In this document: positions 16,706 through 38,558 of the stretch, piece by piece
How the letters are laid out: each line of letters begins with the position of its first letter
Position numbering within the stretch: the first letter of the stretch is position 1
IMG/VR virus record: IMGVR_UViG_3300047388_000211
Span: 1-64,000 of that record
Length of the DNA stretch: 64,000 nt
Direction: 5' to 3' (one strand)
Source of the DNA: a virus
Made by a program: the position numbers and the translations under genes
The notes under the pieces: model-generated
The model's database searches: none
Seen by the model: only the letters and a program-made list of their open reading frames with translations
What the model was told of the DNA's origin: nothing

Positions 16706-17492
16706 ATACAAAGAACCGCGCTTCGATTTGATGAAACAGATTGCGGGCGAGATTCGTTCCCGCCATCCCGGGCCCCTCATTGCCGCGATTGGGGCGGGAG
16801 ATCCGGATAAGCCCTACACCATCCCGATGGGGATGAAGGCCGGATACGGCATAGCTGAATACATTGATGATAACTACCATGGAACACTCTTTACGGGAGG
16901 AATGAATGGCGTTGGCGCGGACATTTTTGTTGGGGTGACGCGCTATCGTATGCATGCCAGCCACGGACAGCCTCCAGTTATCAACTTCAGGCATTTCTTC
17001 GTGCTGATCCCAGAGAGAGAAACCCATTCCATTATGGGATTCGGGGAGTTTATTGAGCCCTTCCAGGAATCCTATTCCTATCGGCAGCTGGCGGCATTGA
17101 CGGGGGACGACATCATTCGCGAGAGGGCGGGAGACTCCCTCGAAGAACGGAGGATTTGTCTGGCCCACACCGCTGACTTCGCAGTGTGCCTCAATGGCAC
17201 AGGCGGGACGTTGGATGAGGCCGCCATGATCCTCCAGCACGGGAAGCCTGTGATTACATGCGCGGAGTCGGGAGGCGTATCGGAAGCGCTCCAGACCTAC
17301 AAAACGTATTTGGTGGGCAACTTCAACATGAAGCTGAAGTGGCTGGAGAAGATGATGAATGTGATGCCGTTTGGGATGAATCCAGACTTAATTGTAACGA
17401 CCGATACGGTGGAAGAAGCCGTAGAGGCCGTTAAACGACAAATGAAAGGAGGGACACACGCCTCCGGCAATAAAGCCGGAAGGCTTATTTAG
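16674..17492 (+). CDS. SLOG/LOG-family nucleotide hydrolase-like protein
   Basis: 272 aa with GGGAGG directly before the ATG. NGTGGTLDEA (about residues 182-191) is the GGxGTxxE signature of the LOG/lysine-decarboxylase-like fold, followed by KPVITCAESGG. The family includes phosphoribohydrolases that release a base from a nucleotide and SLOG sensors of nucleotide signals. GGMNGVGADIFVGV is the first Rossmann strand region. Together with the neighbouring PRTase this suggests base exchange or salvage, or consumption of a nucleotide signal. Confidence 0.68.
   Translation: MDRMRIKRKVKYKEPRFDLMKQIAGEIRSRHPGPLIAAIGAGDPDKPYTIPMGMKAGYGIAEYIDDNYHGTLFTGGMNGVGADIFVGVTRYRMHASHGQPPVINFRHFFVLIPERETHSIMGFGEFIEPFQESYSYRQLAALTGDDIIRERAGDSLEERRICLAHTADFAVCLNGTGGTLDEAAMILQHGKPVITCAESGGVSEALQTYKTYLVGNFNMKLKWLEKMMNVMPFGMNPDLIVTTDTVEEAVEAVKRQMKGGTHASGNKAGRLI
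17460..17490 (+). terminator. Weak terminator overlapping SLOG gene end
   Basis: GCCTCCGGC and GCCGGAAGGC pair with one bulge around AATAAA, followed by TTATTT. The hairpin is inside the last codons of the SLOG ORF. Confidence 0.5.
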
Positions 17493-23986: not shown

Positions 23987-24515
23987 GAAGCTGACCCCGG
24001 TATCACGTGTGATCGAGACTGTCTACAGCGCCAAGTCCTGGGACGGGGTGAAGCCTGAAGTTGTCGAGAATGCGCGGGATCGGGGGATCGCGGTCGACCG
24101 CTACATGGCGGAATACATCCGGACTTCCCTTATCCGGATTGAGCCGGATGAATCGCCCGAGGTACGAGATCGGGTGATTGCGGCTCACCGGATCTGGGAG
24201 GAGGAGTTTTCCGGCTTGCCAGCCGTCAGCCAGAAGATCGTTTATTCGCTCCAGGATGGCATTGCAGGCACGATGGACTTCTGGGTGGACCAAAGTATCG
24301 TCGTGGACCTGAAATGCACCTATAAACCAGAGAAGGCATGGATTCTCCAGCTGGGAGCCTATGCGAACTATTGCCAGGAGCCGCCCCGTCGGATGGGGGT
24401 CATCCATGTCACGAAGGACGGTGGTACGTGGATCGAGTACAACGTGATGTCCTGCGCTGCCTACTGGCGACAGGGTGTCAGCTGGTGGCGAACCACCAAC
24501 GAGATGAAGCGGTGA
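23880..24515 (+). CDS. PD-(D/E)XK nuclease, RecB/Cas4-like
   Basis: 211 aa. The core DGIAGTMDFWVDQSIVVDLK (about 125-144) carries the catalytic Asp and D-x-K pair, followed by LQLGAYA with a Gln, as in RecB/Cas4/lambda-exonuclease-like folds. No iron-sulfur Cys cluster, unlike Cas4. It probably resects ends for the neighbouring ERF annealase. The stop overlaps the next GTG. Confidence 0.8.
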   Translation: METAVETFGKQSQDIIQGEIRFRPSTHEYFHSPTNKKLTPVSRVIETVYSAKSWDGVKPEVVENARDRGIAVDRYMAEYIRTSLIRIEPDESPEVRDRVIAAHRIWEEEFSGLPAVSQKIVYSLQDGIAGTMDFWVDQSIVVDLKCTYKPEKAWILQLGAYANYCQEPPRRMGVIHVTKDGGTWIEYNVMSCAAYWRQGVSWWRTTNEMKR

Positions 24516-24823
24516 GACGAAAGTATCGCGCGGTTCGAACGGAGGTGAACGGTGTCGTTTTTGCCAGCAAAAAAGAGGCGTCTCGGTATATGGAGTTGCT
24601 TCTACTTCAGAGAGCGGGAGAGATCAAAGAGCTTGAACTCCAAGTCAAGTTCTCGATCGACATCAACGGAGTCCATATCTGCAACTACTTCGCGGACTTC
24701 CGGTACAAGCCCAGAAGAGGGGACGCCGTCATCGAAGACGTCAAAGGAATGCGAACCCCGGTCTACAACCTTAAAAAGAAACTGATGCTGGCTTGCCATG
24801 GCATCACTATTTGGGAGACTTAA
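24512..24823 (+). CDS. DUF1064-family protein
   Basis: 103 aa from a GTG that overlaps the nuclease stop. RRKYRAVRTEVNGVVFASKK, then LELQVKFSI and IEDVKGMRTPVYNLKKKLM match DUF1064. This is a small phage fold with an E-D-V-K-G core, often considered a restriction-endonuclease-like or Holliday-junction-type nuclease. Next to ERF and PD-(D/E)XK this fits recombination. Confidence 0.78.
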   Translation: MRRKYRAVRTEVNGVVFASKKEASRYMELLLLQRAGEIKELELQVKFSIDINGVHICNYFADFRYKPRRGDAVIEDVKGMRTPVYNLKKKLMLACHGITIWET

Positions 24824-25090
24824 ATGATTCGGTGTCCGAACTGTAAGGCCGAGATTGAAGTGCGCGCGGTCGCGGCGAATACCACACGCGCGGTGATTCC
24901 GCCCACACCCAAGCCGAATGTGAGCGATGTGGGAGATCTTCTCGCCTCCATCAATCCCGACGCGCTCAATGATTACGAGCGAGAGTTCATTGAAACGACC
25001 CGTGAGCGCTATGAGAAGTATGGGGACGAGATCCGAATGTCCCCGAAACAGATGAACGTCCTTCGCGGCATCGCAGGGAAAGACTTTTGA
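24824..25090 (+). CDS. Small N-terminal zinc-knuckle protein, 88 aa
   Basis: Starts MIRCPNCKAEIEV with one CxxC. A Pro-rich linker leads to a helical C-terminus (YEREFIETTRERYEKYGDE, then MSPKQMNVLRGIAGKDF), a common small DNA-associated phage end. It follows the DUF1064 gene without a gap and overlaps the TTG start of the first glycosyltransferase. Confidence 0.58.
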   Translation: MIRCPNCKAEIEVRAVAANTTRAVIPPTPKPNVSDVGDLLASINPDALNDYEREFIETTRERYEKYGDEIRMSPKQMNVLRGIAGKDF

Positions 25091-26250
25091 AACCCATACC
25101 CATTCTCTTTCTCAGTGATAATCCGGCCCTGCCCACAGGGTTGGCCCGCATCACGAAGGATCTGGCGGTCCACGTGGCCTCGCTCCCGGAGTTCCGGGTG
25201 GGCACTCTGGGCCGGGGTGGCGTCTCCTCCTCGAAGCTGCCGTTCTTCAATGTGGCTTTCGATGAGGCTTACCAGTGGGGTGAGAACTACATCGAAGATG
25301 TCTGGAATGATTTTGCGGGGAGTCAGGAAGGTGTCCTGATGACGGTGTGGGATATGTCCAGGCTGGGATGGTTTGCCCGTCCCCGTATGGGTGGCCGACT
25401 CCAGGAGTTCCTGGAATCCAAGCGCTTCAAGAAGTGGGCCTATGTCCCGGTGGATCATTATGGGGTCGCCGGGAAGATGACTACGGAATGTGCCGATACC
25501 CTCCGGGGTTTCGACCGGATCTTGGCCTACACCATGTTCGGGAAGCAGGTGATTGAGGACACGCTCGGGGTGGAGGATGTGGACTGGATTCCCCATGGGA
25601 TCAATGGCGATGTCTTCCAGCCACGAGATAAGGTTCCGGGACGGATGGCGCTGGGGGTGAAGCCGGACGAACTACTGATCGGCTGTGTCATGACCAACCA
25701 GGAACGAAAGGACTGGGGCACGGCCTTTGCGGCCATGGCTCAACTGAAGACCACGGGGCGACGGTTCTGGGTCCATACCGATGTTCCCATCCGTGCCTGG
25801 AATATGTATGCCCTCGCCCAGGACTTCGGAATGGGCAACAGTATCGTGTTTACTTTCAATGGGGAGTACAGCAGTGAAGAACTCAGCTATCTCTACAGCG
25901 CCTGCGATATTAGCTTCCTGCCTTCTCTTGGTGAGGGCTTCGGATACCCCATCATTGAATCGCTGGCTTGCGGAGTGCCTGTTGTTCATGGCAATTATGG
26001 CGGAGGCGTTGAACTTATTCCAGAACGGGACTGGCTGGTCTCCAGTGTATCGACGCGTCTTGACGGCCCTTGGAATTGCGTGCGCCCGGTATGGAATCCG
26101 CAGGACTGGGCGAAGAAGCTCGAATGGGCCCTGACCCAGTACGGGGATGGGAGCTACCGGGATACCTGTACCAATGCGGTATCGCATCTAACCTGGAAGA
26201 ACCTGTGGCCTGCGGCCTGGAAGAAGTGGTTTCTGGATGGAATCGCATGA
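25087..26250 (+). CDS. Glycosyltransferase, GT-B fold (GT4-like)
   Basis: 387 aa, starting with TTG inside the previous stop. The N-terminal domain has a LSDNPALPTGLARITKDLA nucleotide-fold start. The C-terminal domain contains CDISFLPSLGEGFGYPIIES, followed by GVPVV, the GT4 donor-site E-x7-E. It transfers a sugar from a nucleotide donor. First gene of the glycan operon. Confidence 0.82.
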   Translation: MKPIPILFLSDNPALPTGLARITKDLAVHVASLPEFRVGTLGRGGVSSSKLPFFNVAFDEAYQWGENYIEDVWNDFAGSQEGVLMTVWDMSRLGWFARPRMGGRLQEFLESKRFKKWAYVPVDHYGVAGKMTTECADTLRGFDRILAYTMFGKQVIEDTLGVEDVDWIPHGINGDVFQPRDKVPGRMALGVKPDELLIGCVMTNQERKDWGTAFAAMAQLKTTGRRFWVHTDVPIRAWNMYALAQDFGMGNSIVFTFNGEYSSEELSYLYSACDISFLPSLGEGFGYPIIESLACGVPVVHGNYGGGVELIPERDWLVSSVSTRLDGPWNCVRPVWNPQDWAKKLEWALTQYGDGSYRDTCTNAVSHLTWKNLWPAAWKKWFLDGIA

Positions 26251-26972
26251 AGATGGCGATTGGGGTGGCCACCATGCGGGAAGGCACGGCTCCTCCTGGG
26301 GATATCTCTCTGGCCACCTGTAACGCCACCCACGATATGCAGGTGGTGGTGGTGCGGAATACCCCAGAGGAGAATCTGGGAGTGGTGGGAAGCTACCAGA
26401 AGATCTATGAATCGACGGATGCGGACATCATCTGTTACATGCACGACGATGTGATCGTGAGGGAAAGGGGTTGGGATGAACGAATACTACAACAGTTTGA
26501 TGCGCGGGATACAGGCGTCGTCGGCTTCGGCGGTGCGGAATGGCATGGGACTCCAGAACTCTACAAAACACGTTATACCCTGGGCCAGCTTAGGCGCGGT
26601 GAATACCGTTCGAACGTCGATGATGCCGAAGTCCACGGTGAGCGCTTCGCCGGAGCCTGTGACGTCGCGGTCCTGGACGGCTACTGTCTTGCCGTACGCC
26701 GGTCTTTTCTTGAGCGTAGCGGCGGTTGGGCTTTCCTTCAAGCTGGCGGCATCGACTTCTTCTGTTATGACTACGCTATCTGTGCTCTTGCTCGCCGCTA
26801 TCAGTATCGCGTGCGCTGTGTTGGGATTCGTTGCCATCATCGAGGAGGGGGCACATCGGTCCTCGCGAAGACGGGAATAGCTTCACCGGAAGCCTACGAG
26901 GCTTCCCATCGTTGGTTTTATGAGGAATTCAAGGACGTAATGCCTTGTCGGGTAAACCCACAGTCGTTCTGA
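26247..26972 (+). CDS. Glycosyltransferase, GT-A fold
   Basis: 241 aa from the ATGA overlap. YMHDDVIVRERGWDERIL holds the metal-binding D-x-D equivalent, and VLDGYCLAVRRSFLERSGGW resembles the acceptor-site region of GT2-like enzymes. It would add a further sugar in the same pathway. Overlaps the radical SAM gene by 28 bases. Confidence 0.75.
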   Translation: MKMAIGVATMREGTAPPGDISLATCNATHDMQVVVVRNTPEENLGVVGSYQKIYESTDADIICYMHDDVIVRERGWDERILQQFDARDTGVVGFGGAEWHGTPELYKTRYTLGQLRRGEYRSNVDDAEVHGERFAGACDVAVLDGYCLAVRRSFLERSGGWAFLQAGGIDFFCYDYAICALARRYQYRVRCVGIRCHHRGGGTSVLAKTGIASPEAYEASHRWFYEEFKDVMPCRVNPQSF

Positions 26973-28423
26973 TTACGCCGCCGTCCCCGTTCCTACTGGA
27001 CGAGAGGGTCTTTCCATCCCTCGGCATCCTGAAGGTGGCGGCAGTGGTGGAACAGCTGGGTTATCCGGTAACACATTTAGACCTAAACGGCATTAGCAAT
27101 TATGAGGAGGCAGTAGCAAATCTATGTCAATCAATGATTCAAGAGACACCAACCCCTACGCCGATTTTTGGGTTAACAGCCACAACACCACAAATGGTAG
27201 CGGCTACACGTATCACCCGGGTGATCCGGTTTACGTCACCGTCGGCCAGGATTGTGCTGGGTGGACCACATCCAACACTGGTACATGCGGCAGCGCAGCA
27301 GGGCAGCCTGCGAGCTTTACCACTCCTGAAGGAACTTACGACGAAGTTCAATGTTATTGTTGCGGGGGACGGGGAAGAATCTATCGCCTGCGCCCTGGAA
27401 GCGAACCCCCCAAGTTTGATCGACGCGGACGACCCGAAGACAAGCCTGTTCCTGACGAGCCAGAGGATCGCGGAATTACCCTTCCCTCAGCGTTCCCTGA
27501 TCGACCTCGATAGCTACCACTATGAGATCGATGGGGTCCGAGCCACGCCCTTGATCGCCCAGCTGGGCTGTCCCTTCGGCTGCAACTTCTGCGCCGGGAG
27601 GGACAGTGCCATGCTGCGGCGGGTGCGGATGCGCCCCACATCGAACATCATCGCGGAGATGCAGCACATCTATCTGACCTATGGGATACGGGGGTTCATG
27701 TGGTTTGATGATGAAACCAATGTAAACAAAGGGTTCATGGGTCTCATGAATGCTATCTGCGATCTCCAGTCGGATCTCGGTGTCGAGTTCCGTTGCCGTG
27801 GATTCGTGAAGTCCGAGTTATTCACGGAGGCTCAAGCCGCAGCAATGCACCGTGCGGGATTCAGAAAAATTCTCTGTGGTTTTGAAAGCGGAAACGATCG
27901 CATTTTAAAAAACATTAACAAGCAGGCCACTAAGGACGAAAACACGCGGGCCATGGAGATCTCGCACAAATATGGACTCGGCATGAAAGCTCTGATGAGC
28001 ATTGGGCATCCGGGAGAGTCCCCGGAAACCCTGCAAGATACCCTAGAGTGGGTTATCAGCGTGGCTCCGAACGATGTGGATTACACCATTATTACGCCAT
28101 ACCCTGGCAGTCCATATTTTGACAAATCTAGGCACCTTGGTGGAAAGACATGGGCGTTTGAAGTCAATGGCGACCGTTTGTATCAGGAAGAAATTGATTA
28201 CAGCGTGACGGAAGATTTCTATAAGGGCTCGATGGATTCCTATAAGAGCTATGTCTGGACAGACTTCCTATCTGAGGATGAGCTTGTCGCTCATCGGGAT
28301 TCAATGGAGCGAAAAACCCGAGACACCCTGAAGCTGCCATATTACCAGCCCAGGCCAGGGATCTCTTTTGAGCACAGCATGGGTCAGTCACCTATTCTGC
28401 GAAGATCTGGAGATGGACGATAA
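26945..28423 (+). CDS. B12-binding-type radical SAM protein
   Basis: 492 aa with TTG start (AAGGA upstream). The N-terminal 190 residues match a cobalamin-binding-like Rossmann domain (VVLITPPSPFLLDERVFPSL, then GLTATTPQMVAAT and VLGGPHPTL). CPFGCNFC (near 211) supplies the three cysteines for the 4Fe-4S cluster, followed by MWFDDETNVNKGF and GFESGNDRILKNINKQ typical of B12-radical-SAM enzymes. These methylate or rearrange unreactive carbons, for example on sugars or lipids. No D-x-H-x-x-G lower ligand seen, so B12 binding may be base-off without His or lost. Confidence 0.8.
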   Translation: MSGKPTVVLITPPSPFLLDERVFPSLGILKVAAVVEQLGYPVTHLDLNGISNYEEAVANLCQSMIQETPTPTPIFGLTATTPQMVAATRITRVIRFTSPSARIVLGGPHPTLVHAAAQQGSLRALPLLKELTTKFNVIVAGDGEESIACALEANPPSLIDADDPKTSLFLTSQRIAELPFPQRSLIDLDSYHYEIDGVRATPLIAQLGCPFGCNFCAGRDSAMLRRVRMRPTSNIIAEMQHIYLTYGIRGFMWFDDETNVNKGFMGLMNAICDLQSDLGVEFRCRGFVKSELFTEAQAAAMHRAGFRKILCGFESGNDRILKNINKQATKDENTRAMEISHKYGLGMKALMSIGHPGESPETLQDTLEWVISVAPNDVDYTIITPYPGSPYFDKSRHLGGKTWAFEVNGDRLYQEEIDYSVTEDFYKGSMDSYKSYVWTDFLSEDELVAHRDSMERKTRDTLKLPYYQPRPGISFEHSMGQSPILRRSGDGR

Positions 28424-28883
28424 ACTCATTGCATTCTTCTGGAAAAGAGTAAACAAGACTGCCACGTGCTGGCTGTGGACTGGGGGTAAGGGCATATTCG
28501 GTTATGGAATACTCGGCATAAAGCCTCGGTACCACGCCCATCGATTTTCATGGTATCTGGCTTATGGCCAGATTGCTGATCCATCGCTGTGCGTCCTACA
28601 TAAATGCGATGTCCCGGCATGCGTCAACCCGGACCATCTATTCCTCGGCACACGACAAGACAACATGAAGGACTGCATTGAAAAAGGGAGATTTAATCTT
28701 TCGAAGTATTCGTCGCATCCCGGAGAATCCAACGTTACATCTAAATTGAACAATGAAAAGGTTCGTCGCATCCGACAGCTTCGAGCGGAGGGAATGAGAG
28801 TGAAAGAAATTACCGCAGTGATTGGAGTGTCTCTAGCAGCCATCGAAGATGTTCTTTATGGCAGGACATGGACTCACGTATGA
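28413..28883 (+). CDS. HNH homing endonuclease
   Basis: 156 aa. CWLWTGGKGIFGYGI opens the HNH_3-type domain and CVLHKCDVPACVNPDHLFLG carries the Cys/His metal site. The C-terminal SKLNNEKVRRIRQLRAEGM, then VKEITAVIGVS, is a NUMOD/HTH-like DNA-binding tail. It is a selfish nuclease inserted between glycan genes, overlapping the radical SAM end by 11 bases and the next start by ATGA. Confidence 0.85.
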   Translation: MDDKLIAFFWKRVNKTATCWLWTGGKGIFGYGILGIKPRYHAHRFSWYLAYGQIADPSLCVLHKCDVPACVNPDHLFLGTRQDNMKDCIEKGRFNLSKYSSHPGESNVTSKLNNEKVRRIRQLRAEGMRVKEITAVIGVSLAAIEDVLYGRTWTHV

Positions 28884-29584
28884 GCCTCTTAGTTATCAGT
28901 CGCTGTTACTTTCCACCCCAGGAGGTGGAGCTATTCTCCGGCCACATGATGGCTACTGCCCGACGGGTGGGGCTGGAGCCTCTCCGCTTCGGCATCGGGG
29001 AACAGATGTCCACCCATGGGGGCTCCGGTGAAGGTCCCGGAGCTTTAGCGGTGCTGGAGTCCAGAACGGAGGAGGTTGTCCTCTGCTGCGACTCGATGGA
29101 TGTGGCCTTTCTGGCTGGAGAGGAAGAGATCCTGGAGAAGTTCTCCCATATGAATAGCGACTTCGTGGTGAGCGGGGAGATGTGTGCGCTGCACAACATG
29201 GAGAAGAGTAGCGCGAGGCTTCAGCTCTATCCCGGCTACTTCAAAGAGATCAACGTGGGGCTGTGGATCGGCAAGCGCACCCATGCCATCGAAGTCCTGC
29301 GCTATGCCATCGATCACTACCGCTACCACGACGACACCCATGGCCAGGACACGCTCCAGACATGGCTGCCCCTAATGTACGTGGAAGGCGGCGGCCCGGA
29401 GTTTGAGATTGATCGGGATTGCTATCTCTTCCAATCGATGAACCGGGTGCATCTGGGGGACTTCGTATTCAAAAACAAACGAATGGTCAACATCGTGACC
29501 GGCTCCTATCCTGTCGCTCTTCACTACAACGGGGACAAGAGCCGGTCCAGCTACTTTGAAATGGTGAAGAGGTTAACCGCATGA
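28880..29584 (+). CDS. PLOD-like glycosyltransferase, GT-A
   Basis: 234 aa starting in an ATGA overlap; an upstream in-frame ATG at 28868 is an alternative. CDSMDVAFLAGEEEILEKF matches the collagen-glucosyltransferase/PLOD donor site (D-x-x-D). LYPGYFKEINVGLWIGK and DRDCYLFQSMN resemble the acceptor and second metal regions. A relative lies at 35244. Likely transfers galactose/glucose-type sugars. Confidence 0.72.
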   Translation: MSLLVISRCYFPPQEVELFSGHMMATARRVGLEPLRFGIGEQMSTHGGSGEGPGALAVLESRTEEVVLCCDSMDVAFLAGEEEILEKFSHMNSDFVVSGEMCALHNMEKSSARLQLYPGYFKEINVGLWIGKRTHAIEVLRYAIDHYRYHDDTHGQDTLQTWLPLMYVEGGGPEFEIDRDCYLFQSMNRVHLGDFVFKNKRMVNIVTGSYPVALHYNGDKSRSSYFEMVKRLTA

Positions 29585-30531
29585 AGGCATTTGTAACGGG
29601 CGGTGCAGGCTTTATCGGTTCCCATCTGGTGGATCGACTGTTAGCGGATGGCCACGATGTGACGGTCTATGACCGGATGCTCCGTGGACCACGGTTACTC
29701 CATGACGCGATGAAGAGTGATCGGCTGGAGATCATCGAAGGCGATCTAATGGACCCCGGTAGCATGCTCATGGATGGCGTGGATGTGGTGTTCCATCTGG
29801 CTGCGCGCGCGGATGTGCGGTTCTCTTCCGAGCATCCCGCTGCGGTGTTTAGTCAGAACGTGCAGGGGACCTTCAACGTGGTGGAAGCGGCACGGCGGAA
29901 TAAGGTGAAGACGATTGTCTTCGCATCCACCGGATCGATCTACGGGGAGCCAACGGTGTTCCCCACCCCCGAAGATGCTCCATTCCCGGTCCAGACCTCC
30001 CTCTATGCGGCCTCGAAGCTCGCGGGAGAAGGATTGATCCAGGCCTTCGCGGAAGGCTTCGGGCTCCAGGGGTTCATCTTCCGCTTTGTGTCCAATGTGG
30101 GGGAGCGCTACACCCATGGCCACATCTTCGACTTCTATAAGAAGCTCAAAGCCAATCCCGATACTCTGGATGTCCTTGGCGACGGCAACCAGCGGAAGTC
30201 CTATGTCTATGTCGGGGATACCGTGAATGGAATCCTGACGGCGCTCCGGAAATCCGACCGGAAGATCAACATCTTCAACCTGGGAACCAATGACTCCTGC
30301 ACGGTGAAGGAATCGATCGGATGGATCACGGAATATCTCAACGTGAAACCGGCCCTTCGTTACCAGGGAGGGACACGGGGATGGTCTGGGGATAGCCCAC
30401 TCATTCACTTGGACTGTAAGCGGCTGCGGAACCTGGGATGGGTGCCGCTCGTGAGTATCCAGACCGGCATCGTGAGAACCGTGAAGTACATGCAGGAGAA
30501 CCACTGGCTCCTGGAGCGAGGTGAGCATTGA
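29581..30531 (+). CDS. NAD-dependent sugar epimerase/dehydratase (extended SDR)
   Basis: 316 aa. VTGGAGFIGSHL (residues 5-16) is the G-x-x-G-x-x-G NAD site. STGSIYG and the catalytic SLYAASK (Y-x3-K) near residue 141 match GalE/RmlB-like enzymes. It interconverts or oxidises nucleotide sugars for the operon. Coupled to neighbours by four-base overlaps. Confidence 0.88.
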   Translation: MKAFVTGGAGFIGSHLVDRLLADGHDVTVYDRMLRGPRLLHDAMKSDRLEIIEGDLMDPGSMLMDGVDVVFHLAARADVRFSSEHPAAVFSQNVQGTFNVVEAARRNKVKTIVFASTGSIYGEPTVFPTPEDAPFPVQTSLYAASKLAGEGLIQAFAEGFGLQGFIFRFVSNVGERYTHGHIFDFYKKLKANPDTLDVLGDGNQRKSYVYVGDTVNGILTALRKSDRKINIFNLGTNDSCTVKESIGWITEYLNVKPALRYQGGTRGWSGDSPLIHLDCKRLRNLGWVPLVSIQTGIVRTVKYMQENHWLLERGEH

Positions 30532-31454
30532 TCATCGTGAGGAGTCCGCTCCGGATCACGCTGGGTGGCGGCGGTACCGACATCCCTGCCTACTATGAGA
30601 AGTACGGTGGGTGCTGTGTCGCTGCGGCGATCGACAAGTATGTCTATGTGACGCTGACGCGTCCGTTCTTCAGTGGAATCTACCTAAAATATTCCGAATT
30701 GGAGCACGTGGATCATGTCCAGGACATCAAGCATTCACGGATTCGAGAAGCCATGCGACTCCATGCTACCGATGAACGCATTGAGCTGACGACTCTGGCC
30801 GATATACCGGCAGGCACTGGGCTCGGCTCATCCTCTAGCTTCACCACGGCGTTGGTTCGGGCGCTATCGGTACATTACGGGCTGAATCTCGACACGCCAA
30901 CGCTGGCTGACGACGCTTGCGAGATAGAAATTTATCGATTGCGGGAGCCGATTGGTAAGCAGGATCAATACATCTCAGCGTATGGCGGAGTCCGGTCCCT
31001 ATATTTTGGCACTGGGAACAGGGTGCATATGGAGTCCATCCGTAACACTGTGGGCTTGGAAGAAAACCTAATGTTGTTCTTCACGGGGATCACTCGATCC
31101 ACGACCGACATTCTCCGCCCCCGGAGAGAGATGCTGAAAGATTCCATGGGAGAGACAGCTCAGGCGCTACTGGAAGCGGGGCGACTACGGGACTTTGGCT
31201 CCCTCTTGAATGTCCAGTGGAAGCGGAAGAAAGACATGATGCCGGAAGCGATCCCTCCCGTTATTGAGGAGTATCGGGAAGTTGGGCTGAAGAACGGAGC
31301 CATTGGCGGGAAGCTGGTGGGTGCGGGAGGTGGCGGTTTCCTCCTGTTCTATACCGAAGAGCGCTCCAGGCTACGGGCCGCCATGGCCAAGTGTGGCCTT
31401 GAAGAAGTGCGCTTCCGGTTTGAATTTGAAGGAACAAAGGTGCTGGTGTCATGA
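30528..31454 (+). CDS. hddA: GHMP kinase, HddA-like heptose-7-phosphate kinase
   Basis: 308 aa, TTG start inside the previous stop. RSPLRITLGGGGTDIPAYY at the N-terminus and PAGTGLGSSSSFTTAL (residues 95-110) are the GHMP motifs. GAGGGGFLLFY is the C-terminal motif. This combination is typical of the D-glycero-D-manno-heptose-7-phosphate kinase HddA. It makes heptose 1,7-bisphosphate. The neighbouring GmhA- and HddC-like genes support it. Confidence 0.8.
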   Translation: MIIVRSPLRITLGGGGTDIPAYYEKYGGCCVAAAIDKYVYVTLTRPFFSGIYLKYSELEHVDHVQDIKHSRIREAMRLHATDERIELTTLADIPAGTGLGSSSSFTTALVRALSVHYGLNLDTPTLADDACEIEIYRLREPIGKQDQYISAYGGVRSLYFGTGNRVHMESIRNTVGLEENLMLFFTGITRSTTDILRPRREMLKDSMGETAQALLEAGRLRDFGSLLNVQWKRKKDMMPEAIPPVIEEYREVGLKNGAIGGKLVGAGGGGFLLFYTEERSRLRAAMAKCGLEEVRFRFEFEGTKVLVS

Positions 31455-32035
31455 CGTGGTCGTTCTATACAGAGGATTATCTGCACGACATCGCCGAGAT
31501 TGCGAAGAAGCTGAACCGGAACACCATTGAGCGGATGGTTGAGGGCCTTGCTGAATTGAAGCGCCATCATGGCAGGCTCTTCCTGATCGGTAATGGCGGC
31601 AGCGCGGCCAATGCTTCTCATGCCGTGAATGATTTCAGGAAGATTGTCGGCATCCAGGCTTTCACGCCAACCGACAATGTGGCTGAGCTAACGGCCCGCA
31701 TCAATGACTTTGGCTGGGCTGCCTCCTACGGATCGTGGCTTTCCCAGAGCGGCCTGACGCCAAACGATATGGTGTTCGTATTGTCCGTTGGGGGCGGCGG
31801 AGAACATGTAAGCCAGAACATCGTTCAGGCCCTGAACTACGCTATCGCCATCCGCTGCCCAATTCTGGGGATTGTTGGGAGCCCCGATGGCATGACAGCC
31901 AAAACGGCCAACGCATGTCTGATTATTCTGGACCTTGATGAGGACACCGTTACGCCTTATACCGAGTCCTTTCAGTCCGTGATCCTTCACTTACTTGTGA
32001 CCCATCCAGGACTTCGAGATGAAAATATTCGCTGA
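31451..32035 (+). CDS. gmhA: SIS-domain phosphoheptose isomerase (GmhA-like)
   Basis: 194 aa, the GmhA length. LFLIGNGGSAANASHAVNDF (about residues 38-57) is the sugar-phosphate-binding SIS loop, and VFVLSVGGGGEHVSQN the second. LNRNTIERMVEGLA is the N-terminal helix. The family converts sedoheptulose 7-phosphate to D-glycero-D-manno-heptose 7-phosphate, the step before the adjacent kinase. Confidence 0.85.
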   Translation: MTWSFYTEDYLHDIAEIAKKLNRNTIERMVEGLAELKRHHGRLFLIGNGGSAANASHAVNDFRKIVGIQAFTPTDNVAELTARINDFGWAASYGSWLSQSGLTPNDMVFVLSVGGGGEHVSQNIVQALNYAIAIRCPILGIVGSPDGMTAKTANACLIILDLDEDTVTPYTESFQSVILHLLVTHPGLRDENIR

Positions 32036-32684
32036 CTGCGCCGAACCAAAGACGATGATCGCCCTTGCTCCTGAAGTGGACGGGTTTACTACCAACCCCA
32101 CCTTGATGCGGCAGGCCGGGGTATATGACTATGAGACATTCGCGCGCGGCGTCCTTGAGGCCATCCAAGACAAGCCAATCTCCTTTGAAGTCATAGCCGA
32201 TACCTTCCCGGAGATGGAACGTCAGGCTCATAAGATCCAGTCTTGGGGGCTGAATGCGGTGGTCAAGATCCCGATTACCAATACGAGGGGCGAGTCCTCG
32301 TTTCCGCTCATCGAGCGGCTGGTCGATCGAGGTGTCTCCGTCAATGTGACAGCCGTGATGACAGGGGATCAGGCCACAATGGCGCTGGATGCGGAACCAG
32401 CCATTCTGTCCATCTTCGCGGGGCGTATCGCAGATACCGGCGTGGACCCTCTACCCATCGTCGAAGAGGCAGTCTACGAGGCTGTCGTTACGGAGATCCT
32501 ATGGGCCTCCACTCGGGAGCTTCTCAACATTAAGCAGGCGGAATCCGTCGGTTGCCACATCATTACGCTCTCCCCAGAGCTACTTCGGAAGCGGAGCGTG
32601 ATGGGGAGAAGCCGGGATCTCTACTCTCGGGAGACCGTCCAGCAATTCTACGAAGATGCCAAGAAAGCGGGGTACACCCTATGA
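32019..32684 (+). CDS. Transaldolase family, TalC/FSA-like
   Basis: 221 aa. It starts MKIFADCAEPKTMIALA, close to MxFxDTAxxxxI, followed by DGFTTNPTLMRQAG. NAVVKIPIT contains the Schiff-base Lys, and VSVNVTAVMT plus LSIFAGRIADTG complete the family. Short transaldolases make fructose 6-phosphate or sedoheptulose 7-phosphate. Next to GmhA the second product is attractive, because it feeds heptose synthesis. Confidence 0.85.
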   Translation: MKIFADCAEPKTMIALAPEVDGFTTNPTLMRQAGVYDYETFARGVLEAIQDKPISFEVIADTFPEMERQAHKIQSWGLNAVVKIPITNTRGESSFPLIERLVDRGVSVNVTAVMTGDQATMALDAEPAILSIFAGRIADTGVDPLPIVEEAVYEAVVTEILWASTRELLNIKQAESVGCHIITLSPELLRKRSVMGRSRDLYSRETVQQFYEDAKKAGYTL

Positions 32685-33379
32685 AGGTTTACGTCCATGG
32701 CAATGGCCATCTGGCCGAGATCACGACAGCCCATGTGGCCTCACTGGGGCATGCCTGCCTTGTGGCCCATGAAGCCGACGTCATCTGGTGCTGTGAGGAT
32801 GTGAATAGCGTCCACCACGTCCCGCGCGTCCTGGAAGACATCCACCGTCTGGTTCATATGCGGCCCACGGCCCTGTTCCTGATTTCCTCCCAGCTTCCGG
32901 TCGGTACCATTGGGCAACTGGAAAAAGAGTTTCCGCGTAGCGCGTTCGCCTGCTGCCCGGAGAACTTCAGGGCTGTGGATACCGCTGAGGCCTATCTGGA
33001 GCAGGCGCGATTCGTGGTGGGGGTCCGCGACATGGCACAGGCTATCACCCTGCGTCCTCTATTCCCATTGATCTCCGAGATGGAATGCATGTCGGTAGAA
33101 TCGGCGGAGATGGTGAAGCACACCGTCAATGCCTATCTGGGACTGTGCATCGCCTTCATCAACGAGATCCGGGATGTGTGCGCTGTAGTGGGTGCCGACA
33201 TCGTGGAAGTGGAATCCGGGCTACGCACGGAACCCCGGGTGAGCCCACTGGCACCGCTCCATGCCGGGGAGCCCTTCGGCTGGGGCCATATTGACCGAGA
33301 CCTAACTTATCTCCGGGATCTTCACCGGACTGTACTGATTGAGGCTATCCATGAGAGCAATCATTCTCGCCGCAGGTAA
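32681..33379 (+). CDS. UDP-sugar-dehydrogenase-like protein without catalytic Cys
   Basis: 232 aa, about half the usual length. VYVHGNGHLAEITTAHVA is a Rossmann-like start and SAEMVKHTVNAYLGLCIAF matches the dehydrogenase helix bearing the Lys-Asn pair. The catalytic loop, normally G-G-S/H-C-F/I-P-K-D, reads FGWGHIDRDL here. The Cys is replaced and the last domain is missing. It may be an inactive relative, a sugar-binding partner, or an altered oxidoreductase. Confidence 0.65.
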   Translation: MKVYVHGNGHLAEITTAHVASLGHACLVAHEADVIWCCEDVNSVHHVPRVLEDIHRLVHMRPTALFLISSQLPVGTIGQLEKEFPRSAFACCPENFRAVDTAEAYLEQARFVVGVRDMAQAITLRPLFPLISEMECMSVESAEMVKHTVNAYLGLCIAFINEIRDVCAVVGADIVEVESGLRTEPRVSPLAPLHAGEPFGWGHIDRDLTYLRDLHRTVLIEAIHESNHSRRR

Positions 33380-34043
33380 AGGAGAGCGGCTACAGAGCGT
33401 CGAGCCTAATGTGCCGAAACCCATGGTCCGCATTGCAGATACGCCGGTGCTGGAGTTCACGGTTGAACACCTGAACGACTGCGGCATCCATGGAATCATC
33501 GTTACCACAGGACATTTATCCGAACAAATCATCGATTACTTTGAAGGCCAGTGGGGACTCACGATGCAATACACCGTCGAGAAGGAGCCCCTCGGCACTG
33601 CGGGTGGATTCAAGGAAGCAATGCGACTGTTTGGATGGAATGGGCCAGTGCTCGTATGGAATGGGGATAACTTCTCTACCTGTGATCCCAGGCGGATGCT
33701 GGAGTACCACAAGGCTCATGGTGGGGATGCCACGATGGCAATCTGCTGGAGGAAGAATGCCAGCCAGTCGAGCGTGATTGAATGGAGCTGGGATAACCGC
33801 ATCACCTATTTCCGGGAGAAGGCGGAGCGAAAGCTGGACTACGGCTGGGTGAACGCTGGTATCTACATTTTGAACGAAAGCGTGATGGACTACATCCCAG
33901 ATGTAGGTGACTTTGGCTACGACGTGTTCCCTTCGATGATTCGCGATAGGGATATGTTTGCCTACGGCTTCTCTCAGGATGAATGGCTCTATTGGTATGA
34001 CACTCCGGCAGATTTAGCGGAGCTTCGGAAGAGGTTTCCATGA
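33351..34043 (+). CDS. Sugar-1-phosphate nucleotidyltransferase (HddC/RmlA-like)
   Basis: 230 aa from the ATG at 33351. ILAAGKGERLQS is the nucleotide loop (G-x-G-x-R-L) and PKPMVRIADTPVLE the K-P-M motif. VWNGDNF supplies the metal-binding Asp, and EKEPLGTAGG the sugar loop. In context it activates heptose 1-phosphate as an NDP sugar. GDP versus ADP cannot be read from sequence. It overlaps the preceding gene by 29 bases. Confidence 0.85.
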   Translation: MRAIILAAGKGERLQSVEPNVPKPMVRIADTPVLEFTVEHLNDCGIHGIIVTTGHLSEQIIDYFEGQWGLTMQYTVEKEPLGTAGGFKEAMRLFGWNGPVLVWNGDNFSTCDPRRMLEYHKAHGGDATMAICWRKNASQSSVIEWSWDNRITYFREKAERKLDYGWVNAGIYILNESVMDYIPDVGDFGYDVFPSMIRDRDMFAYGFSQDEWLYWYDTPADLAELRKRFP

Positions 34044-34591
34044 GTCTCGTCGACTTCGGCTTCACCGACAGAATCCCTGGTTCATTCACGAAGATCAATG
34101 CGGAAGCGTATTACAGCTGCGCGATAGAGGTACTGAATCTGCGCGCGCGCCCCACGTTTGTTGAAGTCGGGGTGGACCAGGGCCGAAGCGCCAGCGTGAT
34201 CATGCAGGCCATCAAGACTACAGGAGTTGACGCCTTCATGATTCTAGTGGATAGCTGGGAGAGCGTTCTCATCGGGAACAAGGCAAAAGTGGAGACATTG
34301 GCGCAAGCCAATGGTATCCGCCATGTCATTCTCCATATGACATCGGTGGAAGCGGCAATGGCTGTCGCAGATCAGAGTATCGATATGATCCTGATCGATG
34401 CCAACCATACCGAGAGCCACCCGAATGAGGATTGTGAGGCGTGGCTACCCAAGCTGAAGTCCGGAGGCATCGCCTGCTTCCATGACTATAGCTCCGGATT
34501 CCAGGCCGTGGATGACGCTGTGGATTTCTGGACATCGGCTTATCTGGACCATCAGGTCTATGAAGGGCTGGCGGTTCGGAGGAAACCATGA
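34040..34591 (+). CDS. Class I SAM methyltransferase (Methyltransf_24-like)
   Basis: 183 aa. VEVGVDQGRSASVIMQA is motif I, MILVDSWES the acidic strand end, and ILIDANHTESHP and GGIACFHDYSSGF follow. It is paralogous to the early protein at 10924. In this operon it probably methylates a sugar hydroxyl. Confidence 0.78.
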   Translation: MSLVDFGFTDRIPGSFTKINAEAYYSCAIEVLNLRARPTFVEVGVDQGRSASVIMQAIKTTGVDAFMILVDSWESVLIGNKAKVETLAQANGIRHVILHMTSVEAAMAVADQSIDMILIDANHTESHPNEDCEAWLPKLKSGGIACFHDYSSGFQAVDDAVDFWTSAYLDHQVYEGLAVRRKP

Positions 34592-35247
34592 AAATAACCA
34601 GAGAGGGATTCGCTGTGGTTGAAGGAGACATGCTCCTGTCTCGCTATGTGGAAGAGCAGGGGCGGCTGGATGTGGACTATCCCACCACCGACCTGATGCT
34701 GCCCTATATCCCCGAAGGGGGTATCGTGGTCGATGTGGGAGCCTGTATCGGCGACCACACCGTGGCGTACTCCCAGATGGTGGGGCCTCAGGGGAAAGTC
34801 TATGCCTTTGAACCGAACCCCATTGCCTTTGAATGCCTGCTCTATAACACGAAGGGCTACTCGAATGTGGTGGCCTGTGGCTTCGGTCTGTCGAACTTCA
34901 ACGGCAATGTCAATGTGAAGGTGGATGCCTACAATGTCGGGGCCACGCGCCTTGTGGACTATACCGATGCAGGGCTTCATTCCACCGTCCTCCGCTTGGA
35001 CGATATCGCGAAGGACTGGACACGCCTGGACTTCATGAAGATCGATGCGGAGGGCCATGAACCCTGGATATTGGATGGAGCGAAAGAGACTCTTCGGAGG
35101 CTCCATCCCGTGATGCTTATTGAGATCCAGACCGAAATGCTGGCGCACAATGGTTTCACTCCTAAGGATGTCTATGATCGGCTGGCCAATCTTGGCTTCG
35201 GGTTCAGCGAGGGAGATCGGCATTCCTACGATCTCTTGGTTTTATGA
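34588..35247 (+). CDS. FkbM-family methyltransferase
   Basis: 219 aa. VVDVGACIGDHTVAYSQM is motif I; VYAFEPNPIAFECLL is the strand-2 region; and LDDIAKDWTRLDFMKIDAEG with EPWILDGA is the FkbM signature (K-I-D-x-E-G). Usually O-methylates sugars or polyketides. Four-base overlaps on both sides. Confidence 0.85.
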   Translation: MKITREGFAVVEGDMLLSRYVEEQGRLDVDYPTTDLMLPYIPEGGIVVDVGACIGDHTVAYSQMVGPQGKVYAFEPNPIAFECLLYNTKGYSNVVACGFGLSNFNGNVNVKVDAYNVGATRLVDYTDAGLHSTVLRLDDIAKDWTRLDFMKIDAEGHEPWILDGAKETLRRLHPVMLIEIQTEMLAHNGFTPKDVYDRLANLGFGFSEGDRHSYDLLVL

Positions 35248-35993
35248 AGATCATGTACCTGGGGATCGCGGTATGGCCCTCCTGGGACGTGGCCATGTCG
35301 AAGATGTGGATCTGGCGGAAGTCGATCGATCGCTTCGGCTATGACTTCAAGTACTACGGCATTGGAACCAAGCGCTGGCCCGGGTATCGTGCCCAGAAGG
35401 TGGAGTCCCAGCTGGAGTATTTAGTCAAGAGTGGGACTGGCGGAGCCAGCCACGTGTTCTACACCGACTGCTGTGACTGCCTGATGCTGGCCGATGCCGC
35501 CGAGATTGAGAGTAAGTATAAGGCCATGGGTTCCCCTCCCATGCTTGTCCAGTCTGCGAGCCAGTTGGGCAATGTCAGCGATGGGAGTAAGTATCCATAC
35601 TTTGATGAGCGCTACCCCGGAGTGAAGTTCCGCTACCCCTGTGTCGGTGGCTACCTGATGGAGGTCCCCTTACTGAGACAGTTCTTACAGCGGATGCATG
35701 ATGAGTACCCGGAGAAGGATGGCTGGGGCGATGACTGCTTCATCTGGTACGAAGGATTCCAGCAGGGCTGGTTCCGTCCCCATCTCGATACCAAGTGTGA
35801 GATCTGGACAGTCGGCCATGAAGACAATCTGGAAGTGAAGCGGGGGCGGCTCTACAACCCACTCACCGACTCCTGGCCGTGTCTCTGGCATAACTCCGGA
35901 GGCAGCGCCAATCAGGAGACGTTCAAAGATCACATGATGATCCCGATGGCGCGCAGGCTTGGGATTCTCGGAGAGGATGAGGTGAAGCCATGA
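35244..35993 (+). CDS. PLOD-like glycosyltransferase, second copy
   Basis: 249 aa. VFYTDCCDCLMLADAAEI matches the D-x-x-D donor site of the PLOD/collagen transferase group. YPCVGGYLMEVPLLRQF is the acceptor region and GWGDDCFIWYEGF holds the later acid. Relative of the protein at 28880. It lies between FkbM and a GT2-like gene. Confidence 0.7.
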   Translation: MKIMYLGIAVWPSWDVAMSKMWIWRKSIDRFGYDFKYYGIGTKRWPGYRAQKVESQLEYLVKSGTGGASHVFYTDCCDCLMLADAAEIESKYKAMGSPPMLVQSASQLGNVSDGSKYPYFDERYPGVKFRYPCVGGYLMEVPLLRQFLQRMHDEYPEKDGWGDDCFIWYEGFQQGWFRPHLDTKCEIWTVGHEDNLEVKRGRLYNPLTDSWPCLWHNSGGSANQETFKDHMMIPMARRLGILGEDEVKP

Positions 35994-36700
35994 AGGTCAA
36001 TGTGGTTATGCTTTGCTGCAACAGGCACATGCTCACCCATCAGGCGCTCCGGACACTTCGCCGGAACACACCAGCAGAACTCTTCAATCTCACCATTGTC
36101 GATGACCAGAGCGCGATCCCGCCCATGCTCAAGGAAGGGGATGCCTACCTGAAGATTGAGAACTCAAAACACATCACCGGCCAGGCCCGGAATCTTAGTG
36201 TGTATTGGTCGGAGAAGGTGTTCGGGCGCGGAGACTATCTGTATCTCTCGGATAACGATGTGTATTTTATGCCGGGATGGCTGGACCGTCTCGTGTCGAC
36301 ATTCAATCACGAGGAGCATGTGGGCTTCAAATTGATGGGCGGCTGGAATCACCAGTACATGCAACCTAAGACAGGCATCATGAAGAGCGCTGGCGGTGAA
36401 GGTGGCTATCAGATAGCTGAGCATGACGCGGTGACCGGAGCGTCCCAGCTGATGCGCTGGGAGACCTGGGATAAGTACGGGCCTCTAGACGCTCATGCCC
36501 AGGGAGTATGCCAGGGAGAAGACTGGCAGTTCTGCCAGAAGATCATTAAGGATGGAGGCAGGGTGGGGAGTATCTATCCCAGGGTGGTGTTCAATTGCGG
36601 CCTGACCAACTCCTACGGGGCTCCAAGCGTTGGAGCCGATGTGGTGCTGGCGGAACTGAAGGAAGCGAAGAAGCAGCACCCGGATCTCTATTATGAATAA
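35990..36700 (+). CDS. Glycosyltransferase, GT2-like
   Basis: 236 aa. NVVMLCCNRHMLTHQALRTL is the GT2 start, TIVDDQS and YLSDNDVYFMPGWLDRLV give the D-x-D site, and CQGEDWQFCQKI fits the catalytic acid position (E-D-W). Adds another sugar in the pathway. Eight-base overlap with the next gene. Confidence 0.82.
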   Translation: MKVNVVMLCCNRHMLTHQALRTLRRNTPAELFNLTIVDDQSAIPPMLKEGDAYLKIENSKHITGQARNLSVYWSEKVFGRGDYLYLSDNDVYFMPGWLDRLVSTFNHEEHVGFKLMGGWNHQYMQPKTGIMKSAGGEGGYQIAEHDAVTGASQLMRWETWDKYGPLDAHAQGVCQGEDWQFCQKIIKDGGRVGSIYPRVVFNCGLTNSYGAPSVGADVVLAELKEAKKQHPDLYYE

Positions 36701-37208
36701 GCTCAACATCGGGAGTGGGCAGCGACGGTTTGAGAACGCCTTTGGCTGGGTCAATGTAGATGCCGTATCACGTCCGGGAGAAGAACCGGACCTTATCTGC
36801 GATGTTGGTAAGGAGCCGCTTCCTTATGATGATGGGACGATCGACTGTATCGTGTTGCACCATGTCTATGAGCATTTTCGCCCTGGCGATGGCCACGGCA
36901 TCGTCCTGGAATCGCATCGCGTCCTTCGTGCTGGCGGCAGCCTGATCTTAACGCTACCCAACTGGAGGGCGCTGGCGGAGCGGTGGCTGACTGGTCAGAT
37001 CGACGACTACATCTACTTTATCAATATGTATGGAACCTGGAGAGATGTCGAAGACGCTCACAAATGGGGGTATAGCATGAGCGGGCTGAAGGAAGATTTG
37101 ATGGGCGTGGCTCCATGGAGTCGTATCGCGCCGTTCAACTGGAGAGAGATACATGGGGCATACGTGGCTAAAGACTGGTGGATCAATGGTATAGAGGCAA
37201 TTAAGTGA
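36693..37208 (+). CDS. Class I methyltransferase, Methyltransf_11-like
   Basis: 171 aa. LNIGSGQRRFENAFGWVNVD is motif I, CDVGKEPLPYDDGTID and IVLHHVYEHF are motifs II/IV, and LRAGGSLILTLPNW the strand-5 region. Predicted sugar or small-molecule O-methyltransferase. Confidence 0.8.
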   Translation: MNKLNIGSGQRRFENAFGWVNVDAVSRPGEEPDLICDVGKEPLPYDDGTIDCIVLHHVYEHFRPGDGHGIVLESHRVLRAGGSLILTLPNWRALAERWLTGQIDDYIYFINMYGTWRDVEDAHKWGYSMSGLKEDLMGVAPWSRIAPFNWREIHGAYVAKDWWINGIEAIK

Positions 37209-37597
37209 TGGAATACGTGAAGCAGGATAACAGGAGAATCCGGAGTGACGGAAGCCGCACGAAGGGATCTGTCCGTGGACTACATCGTATTATTGTTGAG
37301 CGGGAGATTGGCCGATCGCTACTTCCAAGCGAAATCGTTCATCATAAGAATACGAATAAGCGTGACAATAGCCCAGACAATCTGGAACTCACAACTCACT
37401 CCGAGCACGCCAAAGAACATAATCGCCTGCGATGGCTTAATGCTATGGCCTGTCGCGTCTGCGATGCTCTCACAATCTCCAGGCTAGGGCTGTGCCATCA
37501 GCACAGCACGATTCAGGGTATCTGGGCACGGAGGCGGGGAGGCAAAACCGGAGACTGGCTTGAAGACTGGATATCCATTTACAGGCCACGAAAGTGA
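37208..37597 (+). CDS. HNH homing endonuclease, second
   Basis: 129 aa starting one base inside the previous stop; GTG at 37205 is an alternative. HRIIVEREIGRSLLPSEIVH, then HKNTNKRDNSPDNLELTTHSEHAKEH, is the HNH_3 core. An additional CRVC and CHQH pair may form a second zinc site. Homing element near the end of the glycan operon. No intron boundary seen. Confidence 0.85.
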   Translation: MEYVKQDNRRIRSDGSRTKGSVRGLHRIIVEREIGRSLLPSEIVHHKNTNKRDNSPDNLELTTHSEHAKEHNRLRWLNAMACRVCDALTISRLGLCHQHSTIQGIWARRRGGKTGDWLEDWISIYRPRK

Positions 37598-37603
37598 GGA
37601 ACG

Positions 37604-37921
37604 ATGCCAAGTCTATTGGACGAAAGGAATTTCATGTCTATTGCCGCATTGGGTAAGTTCTCGATCGACATCACGCCGGTCGAGCATTCCGGTCTCTACC
37701 ACGTCAACATTGGCTCGGAGAACCGGAAAGAGGTGGTCTCCATGCAGACCAACATCGGGGAGACTCCCGATCAGTTTGGGATGCGGATCAAGAGCATGCT
37801 CCGCGCGCTGCTCAATGGAGAACCGAAAGTATTGCCACAGGAGAAGCTCGATGTTCAACCCGATAATAGTCCCGGTAAGAAACAACCTAAGCCTAACAAA
37901 GAAAGCAATCCGAACCTTTAA
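37604..37921 (+). CDS. Hypothetical protein, 105 aa
   Basis: Beta-rich first half (IDITPVEHSGLYHVNIGSE) and a Lys/Pro-rich disordered tail. No family. The tail overlaps the next glycosyltransferase by 71 bases. Confidence 0.55.
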   Translation: MPSLLDERNFMSIAALGKFSIDITPVEHSGLYHVNIGSENRKEVVSMQTNIGETPDQFGMRIKSMLRALLNGEPKVLPQEKLDVQPDNSPGKKQPKPNKESNPNL

Positions 37922-38558
37922 GGCACAGGATATCGGAGACGTCTCCATCCTGGTGATCAACAACGCTTCCACCGATGGAACCACGGAGTACCTGGGAACC
38001 GAGCGGGATATCTATCAGATGTACTACGACCCACCGCTGTCGGTGGCGGCCTCGTGGAACCGTGCCCTGAACTTCTTCTTTATAGCGGGAGCCGAGTATG
38101 CGCTGGTGGTCAATAATGACGTCGAGCTACAGCCCCAGACGTACAGGTATCTCGTGGGGGACGGAGGGGGCTTTGTCACCTGTATCGGGAACCAGCAGTG
38201 GCCGGAGGTGATCAATCCACCGGACCCTGAGAAGAAGCGGGCGCACCCCGACTTTAGCTGCTATCTGATCCGAAAGGAAGTGTATGAAAAGGTTGGGCCG
38301 TTTGATGAGCAGTTCCTTATCGCTTTTGGTGAAGACTGGGATTATCACGTTCGCCTGCATCGATCTGGGATTGCTGCTATGGCTATTGATTTCCCGTTTC
38401 TCCACCACGGATCAATGACCATCAAGAACGCCGATCTCTCCGAGATCCGGAAGATCCAGATGCAGGCGGAAAAGAACCGCATGTACTTCAAGAAGAAGTG
38501 GGGGATGGCGGGAGCCAGCGAGGAGTATTACCGCTACTTCAATAATGAAGCGCCATAA
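37851..38558 (+). CDS. Glycosyltransferase, GT2-like (last of operon)
   Basis: 235 aa from the ATG at 37851 with CAGGAG upstream; the upstream frame is a shadow of the preceding gene. FNPIIVPVRNNLSLTKKAIR and VINNASTDGT are GT2 motifs, ALVVNNDVEL is the D-x-D-like site, and FGEDWDYHVRLH the catalytic region. Last rightward gene before the convergent late operon. Confidence 0.85.
   Translation: MFNPIIVPVRNNLSLTKKAIRTFKAQDIGDVSILVINNASTDGTTEYLGTERDIYQMYYDPPLSVAASWNRALNFFFIAGAEYALVVNNDVELQPQTYRYLVGDGGGFVTCIGNQQWPEVINPPDPEKKRAHPDFSCYLIRKEVYEKVGPFDEQFLIAFGEDWDYHVRLHRSGIAAMAIDFPFLHHGSMTIKNADLSEIRKIQMQAEKNRMYFKKKWGMAGASEEYYRYFNNEAP

Follow-up and report, generated by a model that had tools for sequence, protein, structure and literature searches.

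A putative octose-type sugar-nucleotide cassette within a glycan-assembly operon of an uncultured tailed phage

Which sugar would a tailed phage prepare for itself, and onto what would it be placed? The question is raised by 19 near-gapless plus-strand genes at positions 25087-38558 of the window, the whole 64,000-nucleotide stretch analysed here, which is taken from a 68,317-bp IMG/VR virus record (IMGVR_UViG_3300047388_000211) of an uncultured tailed phage with a bacterial host. Phage hallmarks in the record include a portal (PHROG 156), an SU10-type adaptor, a beta-helix tail spike, a large fn3 virion protein and an ERF recombinase. The operon encodes six glycosyltransferases (GTs), three methyltransferases (MTs), a B12-binding radical SAM protein, six sugar-nucleotide enzymes, two HNH endonucleases and one uncharacterised open reading frame (ORF); all frames are intact and most overlap their neighbour by at least 4 bases (Table 1). 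With many E-values below 1e-10 and synteny conserved in other genomes, the operon is far beyond chance. The six sugar-nucleotide genes form a cassette composed of an SDR, a GHMP kinase, a SIS isomerase, a transaldolase, a shortened homologue of UDP-glucose dehydrogenase (UGD) that we term mini-UGD, and a sugar-1-phosphate nucleotidyltransferase (NTase). Our overall reading, to which we assign a probability of about 0.5, is that a glycan-assembly core has been joined by an acquired octose-type donor cassette and that the product is placed on a virion protein. The original prediction had described a 20-gene operon for a methylated glycan of the heptose type; a Pfam scan of the window proteins recovered the operon and all of the enzyme families it named, but yielded 19 genes and included the two HNH genes, which had been overlooked.

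The soluble core, consisting of GT1, GT2a, GT2b, GT2c, MT24, MT11, PLOD-like genes and sometimes the radical SAM gene, recurs in 23 virus contigs identified by a scan with GT1. We compared the window with the whole records of G002 and G004, two phages that share its portal. Both carry homologues of GT1, GT2a, GT2b, GT2c, MT11 and the PLOD-like genes, and G002 also has homologues of MT24 and the radical SAM gene. The GT2a proteins of G002 and G004 are 51% and 40% identical to that of the window, the radical SAM, GT2b and GT2c proteins of G002 are 61%, 43% and 53% identical, and MT11 of G004 is 48% identical. No gene of the SDR-GHMP-SIS-transaldolase-UGD-NTase cassette is present in either whole record. 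Relatives of the radical SAM protein (46-61% identity) are encoded by at least 55 virus contigs (L236-L289), and GT, MT and PLOD genes recur as neighbours in the GT1- and radical-SAM-bearing contigs; neither a transaldolase nor a kinase lies within 10 kb in any of the 23 GT1 or 55 radical-SAM contigs. Because related phages have the core without the cassette, the core appears to be a phage trait of its own to which the sugar cassette has been added here, and in those phages it must use sugars supplied by the host. The cassette is not set apart as a recent import by its GC content at third codon positions. Some of the radical SAM relatives are on contigs of 200-393 kb, often near MT24 or GT genes.

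The cassette resembles a bacterial operon for which we found no published description. A plasmid search with the SIS protein gave matches only in Rhizobium and Lawsonia, both ~49% identical, and the loci of these two bacteria are related to the cassette across the SDR (49-56% identity), kinase (49-53%), SIS (49-50%), transaldolase (49-50%) and UGD (36-38%; 36-44% for the mini-UGD against operon UGDs overall). A genome scan with a SIS alignment returned more than 560 relatives, 80 of which were kept (loci L040-L119). The usual bacterial order is SDR-UGD-SDR2-Gfo-GHMP-NTase-SIS-HAD-transaldolase. All nine genes are within reach in 17 of the 80 loci, SIS and transaldolase occur together in 72, and these two plus the GHMP kinase in 54; the operon is spread over Acidobacteriota, Chloroflexota, Legionella, Methylococcales, Myxococcota and others. 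In 297 sampled Acidobacteriota genomes a clear gap in score sets the SIS subfamily apart from other SIS proteins: its members, found in 18 genomes, score above 258 bits and the others below 95 bits.

The content of this operon matches that of the lincosamide pathway of Streptomyces, which supplies the sugar of lincomycin and celesticetin. Lincosamide genes include a C8 phosphatase (K), dehydrogenase (L), epimerase (M), isomerase (N), guanylyltransferase (O), kinase (P), transaldolase (R) and oxidoreductase (Z) (PMC4351081). LmbR makes octulose phosphate from ribose 5-phosphate (PMC5854111), and GDP-octose is converted to GDP-lincosamide by LmbM, LmbL, CcbZ and CcbS (PMC12945683). The bacterial operon has eight of the nine amino-octose genes, with the transaldolase corresponding to LmbR, SIS to LmbN, GHMP kinase to LmbP, HAD to LmbK, NTase to LmbO, SDR to LmbM, UGD to LmbL and Gfo to LmbZ; it differs in having no LmbS aminotransferase and an extra SDR2. 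Like the lincosamide route, the phage has a transaldolase adjoining a SIS isomerase and a GHMP kinase, along with an NTase, an SDR and a UGD homologue, but it is limited to these six classes and its UGD is not full length. The lincosamide output is an antibiotic whereas that of the phage would be a glycan, and the likeness described here is one of gene content.

The SIS subfamily is encoded by at least 192 virus contigs, a set from IMG/VR that may include some bacterial contigs. Since several carry a terminase gene (above cut-off on the contigs of L126, L155, L173, L174 and L183, weaker on that of L121), at least part of this set is truly viral. Co-occurrence was counted in 80 of these contigs: a transaldolase is present at 74 loci, a kinase at 64, a HAD protein at 51, and SIS, transaldolase and kinase together at 63. 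All six cassette classes are found in five further viral loci. Bacterial and viral rows interleave in the trees, and the well-supported branches require 3 to 6 changes, which argues that transfer occurred more than once. Among 50,697 deposited phage records we found no member of the SIS subfamily beyond a generic 30% similarity; megablast of the region against phages gave no match, and single-sequence queries found no close relatives of the kinase or SDR in virus contigs. A SIS-HAD fusion, encoded by a single 352-aa ORF in one virus contig (L176:9983-11041), supports consecutive or coupled steps for these two enzymes. Contig L126, which has no HAD gene, has a histidine-phosphatase-like gene (phosphoglycerate mutase type, by eye) directly 3' of its cassette (L126:10610-11218), and this gene might replace the absent phosphatase.

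The most altered member of the cassette is the mini-UGD. This 232-aa protein has lost ~45 N-terminal residues and the entire C-terminal UDP-binding domain; the gene first described as dehydrogenase-like encodes a truncated UGD homologue without the catalytic Cys. The catalytic motif of UGD, GGxCxPKD, reads GWGHIDRD in the phage and GGTLARD in most members of the bacterial operon; the Cys is absent from all cassette UGDs, those of the bacterial operon included, and the Lys, Asn and Asp of the central domain are retained. The AlphaFold model (pLDDT 89.6, pTM 0.85) contains the N-terminal and central dehydrogenase fold of UGD, and Foldseek places it closest to the UGD 3gg2, with TM scores (query) to UGDs of mostly 0.75-0.86. 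The same short form without the Cys is encoded near a kinase and an SDR on four other virus contigs (L121, L126, L130 and L161), and the five viral mini-UGDs form one group in the tree (support 87/83). Short UGD-like proteins also occur in Campylobacter phage F379 and Microbacterium phage Fireman. Loss of the Cys from all cassette UGDs disfavours a simple oxidation to a uronic acid, and we read the mini-UGD as a remodelled enzyme that would no longer carry out the usual two-step oxidation. Epimerisation and dehydration were reportedly divided between LmbM and LmbL by Wang et al. in 2020. The truncation, a 3' end that runs into the NTase start and the missing HAD, Gfo and SDR2 genes could instead mark the cassette as a decaying passenger from a host, with the mini-UGD a pseudogene remnant. 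We consider this very improbable given that the frames are intact and coupled by overlaps, that the mini-UGD is predicted to fold well and is alike in the four other contigs, and that the same core gene set is present in many viruses.

The sugar could also be a heptose, as originally proposed. The transaldolase would then make sedoheptulose 7-phosphate from fructose 6-phosphate and erythrose 4-phosphate, and the SIS, GHMP and NTase proteins would act as GmhA, HddA and HddC to give a nucleoside diphosphate (NDP)-heptose that is later methylated. The folds of these proteins are those of the GDP-D-glycero-D-manno-heptose pathway (GmhA, HddA, GmhB, HddC), a likeness borne out by their Pfam families; in NCBIfam, HddA is the best match of the kinase, gmhA-type models are the only matches of the SIS protein and HddC is among the best for the NTase. 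Heptose gene sets are also carried by two phages, Cr30 of Caulobacter and one of Synechococcus. However, all three scores are far below the equivalog cut-offs: 38 bits for SIS against gmhA (TIGR00441, cut-off 209.45), 116.8 for the kinase against HddA (NF049969, cut-off 600) and 102 for the NTase against HddC (NF049965, cut-off 300), with mannose-1-phosphate guanylyltransferase scoring higher at 119. The Pfam scan detected no HAD protein in the operon that could serve as the GmhB phosphatase, although the host could supply one. A separate GmhA (117-216 bits) is encoded elsewhere in 16 of 20 operon-bearing genomes, in which the cassette SIS scores 29-63 bits. The metal site of GmhA, which we take to be H61, E65, Q172 and H180 (E. 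coli numbering), corresponds to H, D, E and H in the cassette subfamily, invariant in 16 members, and to H57, D61, E172 and H180 in the phage. Retention of these positions is consistent with a heptose isomerase and their alteration is a difference from it; because they are kept but changed, the cassette SIS looks like a working isomerase with an altered metal site. We had considered an inactive isomerase, an idea dropped upon careful alignment (E65 to D, Q172 to E). A heptose route also leaves the dedicated transaldolase, found at most bacterial and viral loci, and the added UGD-, Gfo- and SDR-type genes to be explained, and no heptose route known to us combines a dedicated transaldolase with a UGD homologue and a Gfo protein. 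The heptose interpretation is thus only partly supported, and we regard it as doubtful; what stands is that the phage carries a route to an activated sugar with more carbons than a hexose, and that this route feeds glycosyltransferases and methyltransferases. The activated sugar would have seven or, more likely, eight carbons. Because the operon content matches the lincosamide set and we are aware of no such heptose route, we prefer an octose-type sugar, at slightly better than even odds.

With regard to the acceptor, a hydrophobicity check gave no membrane segment in any protein of the operon, the operon includes no flippase, polymerase, ligase or membrane protein, and the scanned phage genes include no hydroxymethylase, thymidylate-synthase-like, TET/JBP or other base-modification gene. 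A cytosolic protein acceptor is favoured because there is neither a membrane segment in the operon nor a base-modification gene, and a virion protein is our first choice, at roughly even odds. Soluble GTs with a methyltransferase and no export machinery, as present here, are expected of a phage virion glycosylation cluster, and clusters of GTs and O-methyltransferases act on capsid and tail-tube proteins (PMC11600133). Mycobacteriophage clusters of this kind, in which tandem GTs accompany an O-methyltransferase (Freeman et al. 2023, as cited by PMC11600133), likewise pair soluble phage GTs with a methyltransferase; PMC11600133 describes no sugar-donor pathway for them, whereas the present operon has a B12-radical-SAM enzyme and a pathway cassette in addition to six GTs. 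For the PLOD-type GTs no collagen-like acceptor was evident: the 16 late proteins checked have no long GXY repeats. Transfer of the glycan to the host surface (lipopolysaccharide (LPS), capsule or O-antigen) to block superinfection would fit the bacterial operon, whose neighbours are surface-polysaccharide genes for polyprenol-type GT2 enzymes and membrane proteins (judged from sequence heads) and in Lawsonia a flippase-like gene, but it is an unlikely role for a phage operon whose GTs are all soluble, which lacks the export genes listed above and whose core also occurs in phages without the sugar cassette. Hypermodification of phage DNA against restriction has a parallel in phages such as Thanatos, which glycosylate their DNA with the help of sugar-activating enzymes of their own (PMC12838424), and soluble GTs would suit it as well; the lack of any base-modification gene among the scanned genes makes it distinctly improbable.

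Several observations weigh against the reading of a core supplied by an octose-type cassette and acting on the virion. The phage NTase belongs to a different branch, 21-25% identical to the NTases of the Rhizobium and Lawsonia operons and not orthologous to them. The phage lacks the HAD, Gfo and SDR2 genes of the bacterial operon as well as an LmbS-type aminotransferase, and the cassette genes of the window are on long branches whose placement has no support. The octose assignment is based on gene content and not on a tree with Lmb proteins, a transaldolase can also make sedoheptulose 7-phosphate, and a literature search for octoses in LPS or phages returned nothing relevant. Glycosylation of a virion protein is putative, with chances that we consider evenly balanced.

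Homology, co-occurrence, intact frames and catalytic residues that are conserved or altered are observed directly; the pathway steps are inferred from homology, and the carbon number, the sugar and its acceptor are likewise inferences. The phage core would have gained a cassette that makes its own donor. The transaldolase would transfer a C3 unit from fructose 6-phosphate or sedoheptulose 7-phosphate to ribose 5-phosphate, giving an octulose 8-phosphate that the SIS isomerase would convert to the aldose 8-phosphate and the GHMP kinase would phosphorylate at C1. The terminal phosphate would be removed by a phosphatase, presumably that of the host because none is encoded by the phage, and the NTase would form the NDP-octose. 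The SDR and the Cys-less mini-UGD could then remodel the sugar without net oxidation, by epimerisation and dehydration as assigned to LmbM and LmbL. Soluble GTs would assemble a short glycan, which the methyltransferases and perhaps the radical SAM enzyme would methylate, probably on a virion protein.

Sugar-nucleotide gene sets have precedents in Caulobacter phage Cr30 and in Kyanoviridae (SynMITS9220M01, Bellamy), where, as in the window, a phage-borne GHMP kinase accompanies a SIS isomerase or NTase and GTs. Their kinases are 27-36% and their SIS proteins 23-34% identical to those of the window, and the Cr30 set has no transaldolase or UGD. Together with the 192 or more contigs noted above, the HddA/GmhA-like genes already known in Cr30 and cyanophages call for revision of the claim that such a pathway is rare in phages. 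HddA-bearing scaffolds from the human gut that are listed as 'phage' (MT835644 and others) are unverified and may be bacterial, and we did not take them as precedent. Sugar-pathway genes of phages and octose genes of the lincosamide type are each known separately; what seems new in the literature searched is their joint presence in phages, the breadth of this combination among virus contigs, and the Cys-less mini-UGD. We offer only as a tentative generalisation that a widespread, lincosamide-like and apparently undescribed bacterial octose-nucleotide operon has been captured, trimmed and remodelled time and again by tailed phages of many lineages, which, with a virus-specific mini-UGD, decorate their virions with methylated C8 sugars. 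Should phages indeed make octoses, straight-chain C8 sugars would be far commoner in nature than is now assumed, and the synthesis of long-chain sugars would be a recurring viral trait. Genes that standard models take for heptose/LPS genes are connected by this comparison with a characterised route to an antibiotic octose, and the conserved glycan-assembly core of phages is told apart from the pathway that supplies its donor.

Table 1. Genes of the glycan operon, in window coordinates.
Feature	Position	Strand	Evidence
GT1, GT-B glycosyltransferase, first gene of conserved core	25087..26250	+	Glycos_transf_1 PF00534 1.2e-13; PHROG 2170
GT2a, GT-A glycosyltransferase; start set by ATGA overlap with GT1	26247..26972	+	Glyco_tranf_2_5 PF13712 8e-12
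B12-binding radical SAM protein	26945..28423	+	Radical_SAM PF04055 2e-22, B12-binding PF02310 4e-8
HNH endonuclease, probably mobile, outside pathway	28413..28883	+	HNH_3 PF13392 2e-10
PLOD1, PLOD-type glycosyltransferase	28868..29584	+	GT_PLOD PF25342 1.4e-10
Cassette SDR epimerase/dehydratase, LmbM-like by context	29581..30531	+	Epimerase PF01370 2e-52
Cassette GHMP sugar kinase, HddA/LmbP-like	30528..31454	+	PF00288 + PF08544 (GHMP N+C)
Cassette SIS-fold keto/aldose isomerase, subfamily apart from GmhA	31451..32035	+	SIS_2 PF13580 2e-8
Cassette transaldolase, TalC/staphylococcal type, LmbR-like by context	32019..32684	+	TAL_FSA PF00923 7e-37; TIGR02134 250 bits, cut-off 282
Cassette mini-UGD	32681..33379	+	UDPG_MGDP_dh PF00984 4e-14
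Cassette NTase	33351..34043	+	NTP_transferase PF00483 7e-32
MT24 methyltransferase	34040..34591	+	Methyltransf_24 PF13578 3e-18
FkbM-type methyltransferase	34588..35247	+	PF05050 8e-18; TIGR01444 above cut-off
PLOD2, PLOD-like glycosyltransferase	35244..35993	+	PF25342 0.0017, under cut-off; homologous to G002/G004 PLOD-like genes
GT2b glycosyltransferase	35990..36700	+	Glycos_transf_2 PF00535 3e-6
MT11 methyltransferase	36693..37208	+	Methyltransf_11 PF08241 6e-7
HNH endonuclease	37205..37597	+	HNH_3 PF13392 3e-14
Uncharacterised 105-aa ORF	37604..37921	+	no Pfam match
GT2c glycosyltransferase, last gene of core	37851..38558	+	PF00535 3e-6; PHROG 29879

Outside the operon, an additional Methyltransf_24 gene is found among the early genes (window 10849-11490), and a gene with a phosphoribosyltransferase domain overlaps the SLOG cluster-4 gene that comes after it (window 15872-17492), possibly a nucleotide-metabolism or defence-related pair. 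A DUF1064-like gene is located just upstream of the glycan operon (window 24338-24823), and virus contig L121 has another, recognised by eye, immediately upstream of its cassette (5411-5887).

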